13,817 nt of DNA, taken from a bacterium (lineage in GTDB: Bacteria > ARS69). Each line of letters opens with the position of its first letter. The stretch's first letter is position 1. This document shows positions 2,688-6,058 of the stretch, one piece after another. Location: positions 1 to 13,817 of the forward strand of contig JALGZO010000274.1 of assembly GCA_025774865.1 (NCBI GenBank), given 5' to 3'. Position numbers and translations under genes: made by a program. The notes below the pieces were generated by a model. The model saw only the letters and a list, made by a program, of their open reading frames with translations, did not search any database and was not told the origin of the DNA.

Positions 2688-3107
2688 GCCGTCGAAAACC
2701 CGGATAGCGCGTCCACCGCTCGTTCGCGCGTGCCTCGCTGGCTGCCCCCGCTGATCTGGGCCGCCATCATCATCGGGGCGTCCTCACTCGAGGATCTGCA
2801 GACGGTCGTTGGCGGGGTAGAGATCCGGGACAAGCTCGCTCACTTCGGCGAGTATTTCGTCTTCGGTTGGCTCGTGGCCCGCTCCTTCGACGGCCTCGGA
2901 TGGGGCGCCCGGAAGCACTTCCTCTGGACCCTTGCCTTCGGCCTGTTGCTCGGGGTCGTCGACGAGCTCTATCAAGGCTTCGTTCCGGGCCGGGAGCGCA
3001 GCGCGCTCGACGTCCTGGCGGACGTCGTCGGGTCCGCGGCGGGCTGGTACTTCAGTCGAGAGGATCAGGCGGTTGGCGACACTCACGGCACTGCCGGGCA
3101 CTCGTGA
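2685..3107 (+). CDS. VanZ-like family membrane protein
   Basis: About 140 residues from the ATC at 2685, the usual size for small VanZ-like proteins. The family signatures are clear: DKLAHFGEYFVFGWL in the middle, then a hydrophobic helix ending in GVVDELYQGFVPGRERSALD and VLADVVGSAAGWYF. Hydrophobic segments are WLPPLIWAAIIIGASS near the N terminus, one around GEYFVFGWLVA, WTLAFGLLLGVV, and a last short one before the end. VanZ itself confers low-level teicoplanin resistance; chromosomal homologues are mostly uncharacterised inner-membrane proteins, so resistance should not be inferred. The start is uncertain: ATC 2685 has the perfect Shine-Dalgarno, while GTG 2730, TTG 2628 or ATG 2568 are canonical but have none, and the last two lie upstream of the predicted transcript start. 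Its last 35 bases overlap the start of hisS, which implies coupled translation. Confidence 0.82.
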   Translation: MAVENPDSASTARSRVPRWLPPLIWAAIIIGASSLEDLQTVVGGVEIRDKLAHFGEYFVFGWLVARSFDGLGWGARKHFLWTLAFGLLLGVVDELYQGFVPGRERSALDVLADVVGSAAGWYFSREDQAVGDTHGTAGHS

Positions 3108-4262
3108 CCTGATCGCGCCCGAGATCGCGCGATGGCAGGGCATGGAAGCGGCCGCTCGGCTCGTTCTGAATCGGGCGTGCTTCTCCGAGATACGAACGCC
3201 CGTCTTCGAGCGCACAGAGCTCTTCGAGCGCGGCGTCGGCGAGGCGACGGAGGTCGTGGAGAAGCAGATGTACACGTTCGAGAGTCGAAGCGGAAAGGAC
3301 CGCATCACGCTGAGGCCGGAGAACACGGCCGGCGTCGTACGCGCCTTTCTGCAGCACGGACTCCGCACGGAATCGCCGCTGCCGCTCAAGCTCTGGTACC
3401 TCGGTCCCATGTTCCGCTACGAGCGCCCCCAAAGGGGGCGACAGCGCCAGTTTCATCAGCTCGGCGTGGAGACGATCGGCAGCGGAGATCCTCGAGCGGA
3501 CGCCGAGGTGATCCTCGTCGCCTGCGAGTTCCTTCGCGAGTGCGGCCTGGACGATCTCGTCGTCGACCTCAACTCGCTCGGGGACCCGGAAGACCGCGAC
3601 CGTTACCGAAAGGCTCTCGTCGAGTACCTGACCTCGGTGAAGGACCAGCTCGACGAGGACGCCGCCGGACGGATCGACCGGAGTCCCCTGCGCGTGCTCG
3701 ACTCGAAGAACGAGCAGACGCGGGAGGCCGTGAAGCAGGCGCCGTCGATCCTCGAATTTCTCGGCGACGAGTCGCGCGAGCAGAGAAGCTCGGCGCCCAA
3801 TCGACCGTGTGCGGCGGCGGCCGCTACGATGGACTCGTGGAGGAGCTCGGCGGTCCTCGGGTGCCGGCCGTCGGCTGGGCGCTCGGGCTGGAGCGCTTGG
3901 CCATCGTCCTCGACGAGACGCTGGGAGAGCGGGCGGAGCCCGGCCCCGATGCCTGTCTCGTCGCCCTGGGCGACGAAGCCCACGCCCAGGCTCTCCCGCT
4001 CGCCCGGGACTTACGAAGAGCGGGAGTGCGATGCGACGTGTCGTTCGCGGCGGGGGGTGCAGGCAAGCAGATGAAGGCGGCCGACCGGAGGCAGGCGGCG
4101 TTCGCCGTGGTACTCGGGGAGGAAGAGCTCGCGAAGGGCACCACGTCCGTGAAGAATCTCGCGACCGGCGAGCAGATCGAAGTCGCCCGCGACGACCTCG
4201 TGGAGTTTCTTCTCGGAAAGGCCGTGCCGGCGGCGGGCGCCGGGGCGCGGAGGGGGACATGA
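3073..4262 (+). pseudogene. hisS: Histidyl-tRNA synthetase, disrupted by a frame-changing internal deletion
   Basis: HisRS charges tRNA-His. The start is TTG at 3073, with GAGAGGA (3058-3064) 8 bases upstream; it overlaps vanZ by 35 bases. The first part, 3073-3780 (236 residues), is normal: LPGTRDLIAPE, RPENTAGVVRAF, and class II motif 2 FRYERPQRGRQRQFHQLGVE. It reads to GDESRE, after which that frame turns to nonsense. HisRS resumes two frames over at 3783 as EKLGAQSTVCGGGRYDGLVE, then motif 3 AVGWALGLERL and the C-terminal anticodon-binding domain, ending at TGA 4260-4262 inside an ATGA junction with aspS. Between GDESRE and KLGAQ about 38 residues of the family are absent, including the LVRGLDYY HisA motif with the catalytic Arg (Arg259 in E. 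coli). A 112-nt loss fits both the missing length and the frame change. Either the locus is a true pseudogene and another HisRS exists, or this is an assembly error. Confidence 0.88.
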
Positions 4263-6058
4263 AGCTCGACACCCGTCTTCGGACGCACGTATGCGGCGCC
4301 GTCGATGAGAAGCTCGTGGGTCGGACCGTCTCGCTTTGCGGCTGGGTCCACCGATCGCGCGACCACGGTGGGATGATCTTCGTCGACCTTCGGGATCGTT
4401 GGGGAGTGGTGCAGCTCGTCTTCCGCGGCGAGAACCAAGGCGGCAACGCGGAGCTCCGCGAGCGCGGTAAAGCGCTTCGCAACGAGTTCTCGATCCGGGC
4501 TGAGGGCGAAGTCGTGAAACGGGCGCCCGGAACGGAGAATCCGAAGATGGCGACCGGCGCGATCGAGGTCGTCGTCGGGAAACTCGAGGTGTTGAACACG
4601 GCACCGGCCGAGCTTCCGTTCCTGATCGAGGAGGCGCGGCAGGCGGGCGAAGAGCTTCGACTGCGTCACCGGTACCTCGACTTGAGGCGACCATCGCTCC
4701 AGGAGACGTTCGCGCTGCGGTCCCGAACATCCCTGAGCGCTCGCCAGTACCTCACCGGGCAAGGCTTTCACGAGATCGAGACCCCGATGCTCGTCAAGCG
4801 CACTCCGGAAGGTGCTCGCGACTACCTCGTGCCGAGCCGCGTGCATCCCGGGAAGTTCTACTCGCTGCCCCAGTCACCACAGCTCTACAAGCAGATCCTG
4901 ATGTGCTCGGGCTTCGACCGGTACTTCCAGCTCGCCCGCTGCCTTCGCGACGAGGACCTTCGCGCCGACCGGCAACCCGAGCACACCCAGATCGATCTGG
5001 AGATGAGCTACGTGGACGAGGACGATGTGTTCGCGCTCGTCGAGGGCCTCATGGTCACGCTGTGGAAGGAGTCGCTCGGCGTCGACGTTCCGAGCCCCTT
5101 TCCGCGTCTCACGTACGCCGACTCCATGAAATCCTACGGCACCGACAAGCCCGACTTGCGGGCGGGCCCGGCGCTCTTCGAGGTGGCGGATCTCGCCGCC
5201 CGTTCCACGTCGGATCTGTTCCGCGGTGTCGCGGATCGCGGCGACCGAATGAAGGGGCTCAACGTCACGGGAGGCGCCGAGTGGTCGCGGAAGATCATCG
5301 ACGAATTGACCGCCGTGGCGCAGGGCGGGGGGGCCAAGGGACTCGCGTGGACGAAAGTGGACGACGGCGGCGTGCTCGCGGGCGGCGTCGGCAAGTTCTT
5401 CGCCGACATCTCGGACGACTTGAAGGCCCGCGCGGAAGCGGCGTCGGGCGATCTCCTCCTGTTCGTCGCCGGCCCGGAGAAGGTCGTGAACACATCGCTC
5501 GATCTCGTGAGGCGGGAGGTCGGAAAGCGAAAGGGACTGACGCAGGGGAAACCGCCCGCGTTCCTCTGGGTGCACCGGTTCCCGATGTTCGAGAAGGACG
5601 AGGAATCAGGAGATTGGGCGCCCTGTCACCACGTCTTCACGATGCCGCACGACGAATGTCTCGACACCTTCGACTCCGACCCCGGGAGCGCCGTTGGCAA
5701 GCTTTACGATCTCGTTCTCAACGGAACCGAGCTGGGCTCGGGCAGCGTGAGAATCCATCGTCGCGATCTGCAGCAGCAAGCGTTCCGGGTGATCGGCATC
5801 GATGCCGACGAGGCGGAACGGCGCTTCGGCTTCCTGCTGCGGGCCTTCGACCACGGGGCGCCGCCCCACGGGGGGATCGCCCTCGGTCTGGACCGAATCA
5901 TCATGCTGATGACCGGGCGGACCTCGCTCCGGGACGTGATCGCCTTTCCGAAGACGAATCGGGCGGTTTCGCCCATGGACGAGTGCCCGTCCGAGGTCGA
6001 GCCGGCGCTCCTCGACGACCTCGGGATCGAGGTGCGCGAGGCGCTGGAGCGGTCCTGA
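4259..6058 (+). CDS. aspS: Aspartyl-tRNA synthetase, bacterial type, probably non-discriminating
   Basis: A 599-residue enzyme that charges tRNA-Asp, of normal length for bacterial AspRS. The ATG at 4259 overlaps the hisS stop (ATGA) and is preceded by GGAGGGGG. Domains in order: N-terminal OB-fold anticodon-binding domain (about 1-115, GWVHRSRDHGG at 29-38); catalytic core with motif 1 (FHEIETPML, 170-178), TPEGARDYLVPSR, motif 2 with the RDEDLRADRQPEHTQID block at 230-246; the bacterial GAD insertion (about 310-425); and motif 3 GGIALGLDRIIMLMTG (538-553, Arg546). His36 in RDHGG and Gly91 in RAPG correspond, from remembered alignments, to His31 and Gly82 of the Pseudomonas aeruginosa enzyme. 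Those residues mark AspRS that also charges tRNA-Asn for GatCAB. No defects are seen. Confidence 0.96.
   Translation: MKLDTRLRTHVCGAVDEKLVGRTVSLCGWVHRSRDHGGMIFVDLRDRWGVVQLVFRGENQGGNAELRERGKALRNEFSIRAEGEVVKRAPGTENPKMATGAIEVVVGKLEVLNTAPAELPFLIEEARQAGEELRLRHRYLDLRRPSLQETFALRSRTSLSARQYLTGQGFHEIETPMLVKRTPEGARDYLVPSRVHPGKFYSLPQSPQLYKQILMCSGFDRYFQLARCLRDEDLRADRQPEHTQIDLEMSYVDEDDVFALVEGLMVTLWKESLGVDVPSPFPRLTYADSMKSYGTDKPDLRAGPALFEVADLAARSTSDLFRGVADRGDRMKGLNVTGGAEWSRKIIDELTAVAQGGGAKGLAWTKVDDGGVLAGGVGKFFADISDDLKARAEAASGDLLLFVAGPEKVVNTSLDLVRREVGKRKGLTQGKPPAFLWVHRFPMFEKDEESGDWAPCHHVFTMPHDECLDTFDSDPGSAVGKLYDLVLNGTELGSGSVRIHRRDLQQQAFRVIGIDADEAERRFGFLLRAFDHGAPPHGGIALGLDRIIMLMTGRTSLRDVIAFPKTNRAVSPMDECPSEVEPALLDDLGIEVREALERS

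Follow-up and report, generated by a model that had tools for sequence, protein, structure and literature searches.

A clean 112-nt gap in hisS of a draft bacterial genome, most likely an assembly artefact

Organization of the interrupted hisS locus

The window, by which we mean the whole 13,817-nt stretch analysed (contig JALGZO010000274.1 of assembly GCA_025774865.1, ARS69 lineage; the genome is called G000 below), carries hisS in two forward-strand pieces that are collinear with the TIGR00442 (hisS) family and, as a pair, lie directly upstream of an intact aspS (Table 1). Starting from the TTG, the upstream HisRS frame translates as ...APSILEFLGDESRE through 3780 and leaves an orphan CA at 3781-3782, which ends the 5' piece; EKLGAQSTVCGGGRYDGLVE then follows from 3783 in a different frame.

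Table 1. Features of the hisS-aspS region (positions in the window)
Feature	Position	Strand	Content and basis
5' part of hisS	3073..3782	+	TTG start, class II motifs 1-2, to GDESRE; translation, TIGR00442 positions 2-231/232
Junction	3781..3783	+	112 nt missing relative to intact relatives, frame change; nucleotide alignment with G002, G003 and G004, protein alignment
3' part of hisS	3783..4262	+	EKLGAQ..GGGRYDGL (histidine-B), motif 3, anticodon-binding domain; TIGR00442 positions 270/271-405
Intact aspS, the next gene, which overlaps hisS at its end	4259..6058	+	599-aa ORF without stop; 71% identity to the G003 neighbour

Alignment at the nucleotide level with the intact genes of three genomes of the same family (G002, G003 and G004) reduces the difference to a single clean gap of exactly 112 nt, the rest being collinear. 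At the protein level, the missing stretch corresponds to HF...LVRGLDYY...FEIQS and thus includes the histidine-A motif, LVRGLDYY, whose catalytic Arg is absent from the window and present in the aligned relatives. The GLDYY stretch fills the gap in all intact relatives aligned, a set chosen for having it, and the deletion was not found in any relative examined. The preliminary description of this DNA, which had read the upstream frame as ending at GDESRE and had proposed that one loss of 112 nt, and neither a sequencing indel nor programmed frameshifting, accounts for the missing LVRGLDYY residues, their number and the change of frame, is borne out by the translations and by both alignments, which exclude an indel of 1-2 nt.

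As it stands, the locus does not encode a recognizable complete enzyme. Hits to the TIGR00442 profile span positions 2-232 (267-268.5 bits) and 270-405 (139-141 bits), both below the curated cut-off of 286.75 bits taken as the mark of a functional HisRS and exceeded in 54 of 60 related genomes; moreover, the frame shift at 3781-3783 breaks the single continuous frame of the gene. Compared with the family, the gene therefore differs in lacking the 112 nt with the histidine-A motif and in falling apart into two sub-threshold pieces. By translation and profile coverage, those pieces together retain the C-terminal domain as well as class II motifs 1-3 and histidine-B (GGRYDGL).

Both pieces being open and conserved, they could be imagined to act as a split HisRS, or translation could be imagined to bypass the gap. 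Such a scheme is barely credible: the catalytic stretch is missing and has no counterpart elsewhere in the genome, where a 53-residue probe spanning it found no relocated copy (best match E=1.2, a chance level), and the missing residues cannot be supplied by bypass or frameshifting.

Conservation of the hisS flanks

Neither hisS piece shows signs of sequence decay when its identity is compared with that of three relatives. Identity of the 5' piece to these sequences is 69-75%, against 67-73% among the three themselves, and that of the 3' piece lies within or above the range among relatives. Since a gene that had long been without function would drift, the undrifted flanks imply that the loss is either very recent or not real.

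The sequence around the junction was also inspected for features that might have produced the loss. An 8-nt repeat, CGAGCAGA, occurs at 3711-3718 and 3777-3784 and is insufficient for a loss of 112 nt; no long direct repeat flanking the gap was found at the junction, making simple repeat collapse unlikely. A strong hairpin or extreme GC content of the lost stretch was likewise rejected as the cause, being inconsistent across relatives. The closest relatives among the genome contigs compared are at most 61% identical at the protein level, so that no second assembly of the species is among them.

Clean losses in other genes of the same draft

The draft and the sister assembly G003 were surveyed with a codon-usage frame model, trained per genome, that reports same-strand switches between two frames where the upstream frame meets no stop over 75 nt. 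The sample consisted of ~0.5 Mb of G000, from contigs picked for tRNA genes, for other matches or at even steps, against 1.2 Mb of G003; 11 of the sampled G000 contigs, each <3 kb, were read as N, giving an effective G000 sample of ~0.47 Mb. Six switches were found in G000, including that of hisS at 3785, within ~452 kb of coding sequence, a figure that may be somewhat too high given the N contigs, against two in 1,098 kb of coding sequence in G003. Reading by eye identified both G003 switches as overlapping neighbour genes, and they were rejected as real losses.

Besides hisS, the G000 switches affect recJ, an acetyl-CoA acyltransferase (thiolase), an O-antigen-ligase gene, a glucan-synthase-like gene and an IS630 transposase. 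In recJ (L176, G000:C69, about 4000), the frame change is accompanied by the absence of profile positions 156-165, or ~17 nt net; in the thiolase (L279, G000:C670, about 4789, minus strand), positions 115-139 are missing, corresponding to ~25 residues and ~71 nt net (NCBIfam positions in both cases). The O-antigen-ligase gene (C625) and the glucan-synthase-like gene (C740) change frame without a stop; a loss in these two is presumed from the frame change and from family motifs rather than from a comparison with a homologue.

The IS630 transposase (L192, G000:C702, about 2970, minus strand) is read in two frames without any missing profile positions. This switch, possibly a natural frameshift, was excluded from the deletions because nothing is lost by profile positions.

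Two further losses emerged from tblastn comparison with G003 ORFs. A multihaem, cytochrome b/c fusion-like gene (L266, G000:C480, 1140-1146) lacks ~89 nt, with a frame change, and is 62-75% identical to G003; a peptide-binding protein gene (L179, G000:C183, 5728-5735) has lost 16 residues, or 48 nt, in frame from a well-conserved core.

If real cases fell at random by coding length, the chance of finding all five of them in G000 would be ~0.002, a rough value because hisS was known in advance and the cases were assessed by eye; on raw counts, 6 versus 2 gives p = 0.01, or p = 0.025 without hisS. Defects like that of hisS are present in unrelated genes of G000 and absent from the sister assembly.

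Clean deletions in several genes are also what would be expected of a genome truly decaying, by pseudogenization, through small deletions. We consider this very improbable, as the genome measures 4.7 Mb with ~63% GC in the sampled part, rpoB and alaS are intact, hisS is essential and its flanks are undecayed. Moreover, no convincing internal stop codons were seen by eye in real G000 genes, apparent ones lying in shadow or upstream frames in both genomes; the count of in-frame stops is itself weak evidence, dominated as it is by shadow ORFs.

Origin of the gap and its meaning for HisRS

The preliminary description had offered three ways out of the loss of an essential gene: a second HisRS, another route of charging, or an assembly artefact. 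The first found no support in the assembly, where the profile search it had suggested detected neither a further match to TIGR00442 or PF13393 nor a HisZ. The G000 draft, however, is a 4.72 Mb assembly of 785 contigs with a completeness of 92.65% and a contamination of 8.3%, in which tRNAs for His, Ile, Lys, Glu and Tyr were not found either; in addition, G007, a 98% complete genome, has no HisRS match even though both its genus mates have hisS. Because tRNAs for five amino acids also went undetected and hisS can be absent from so complete an assembly, the lack of a second HisRS in G000 is not very telling, and parts absent from such drafts carry little weight. Neither a second gene nor a new charging route is required. 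That the deletion is real and fixed, with tRNA-His charged by an enzyme unrecognizable as HisRS, has a negligible likelihood in our estimation.

A real and very recent deletion, confined to the sampled strain or to a minority of the population while other members of the species keep an intact hisS, would agree with the clean and unique junction; cells carrying it would survive only if another HisRS resided in an unassembled part of the genome, and with ~7% of the latter missing, another hisS could indeed have escaped assembly. Against this stand the lack of a second HisRS or HisZ in the assembly, the absence of decay in both pieces and the like losses in unrelated genes, recJ and the thiolase among them, and we regard such a deletion as unlikely.

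The third way out, an artefact, is strongly favoured, because G000 shows other clean losses in otherwise intact genes and its sister shows none. With several unrelated genes each lacking a clean stretch of ~17 to 112 nt, and no such losses in the sister, assembly error is the simplest account. The assembler would have joined two ends and dropped the 112 nt between them, leaving the real gene intact; wrong end-joining across a small gap is the probable route, and the losses would have arisen during assembly or gap closing rather than in the cell. Many apparent bacterial pseudogenes are described as assembly errors by Cooley and Wright (2024, PMC11017572), and the present case resembles these in the apparent breakage of an otherwise intact, conserved gene in a draft assembly; the defects described there are frameshifts and internal stops, whereas in G000 whole stretches of ~17 to 112 nt are gone.

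In summary, the hisS junction is most likely an assembly artefact, and otherwise no more than a non-functional variant of very recent origin; the 112-nt loss very probably reflects an error in a fragmented, metagenome-type draft, the organism itself possessing an intact hisS. With clean losses of ~17 to 112 nt inside its conserved genes, claims of gene loss drawn from this draft are unsafe. A real deletion would challenge the indispensability of HisRS; the evidence, however, speaks against one.
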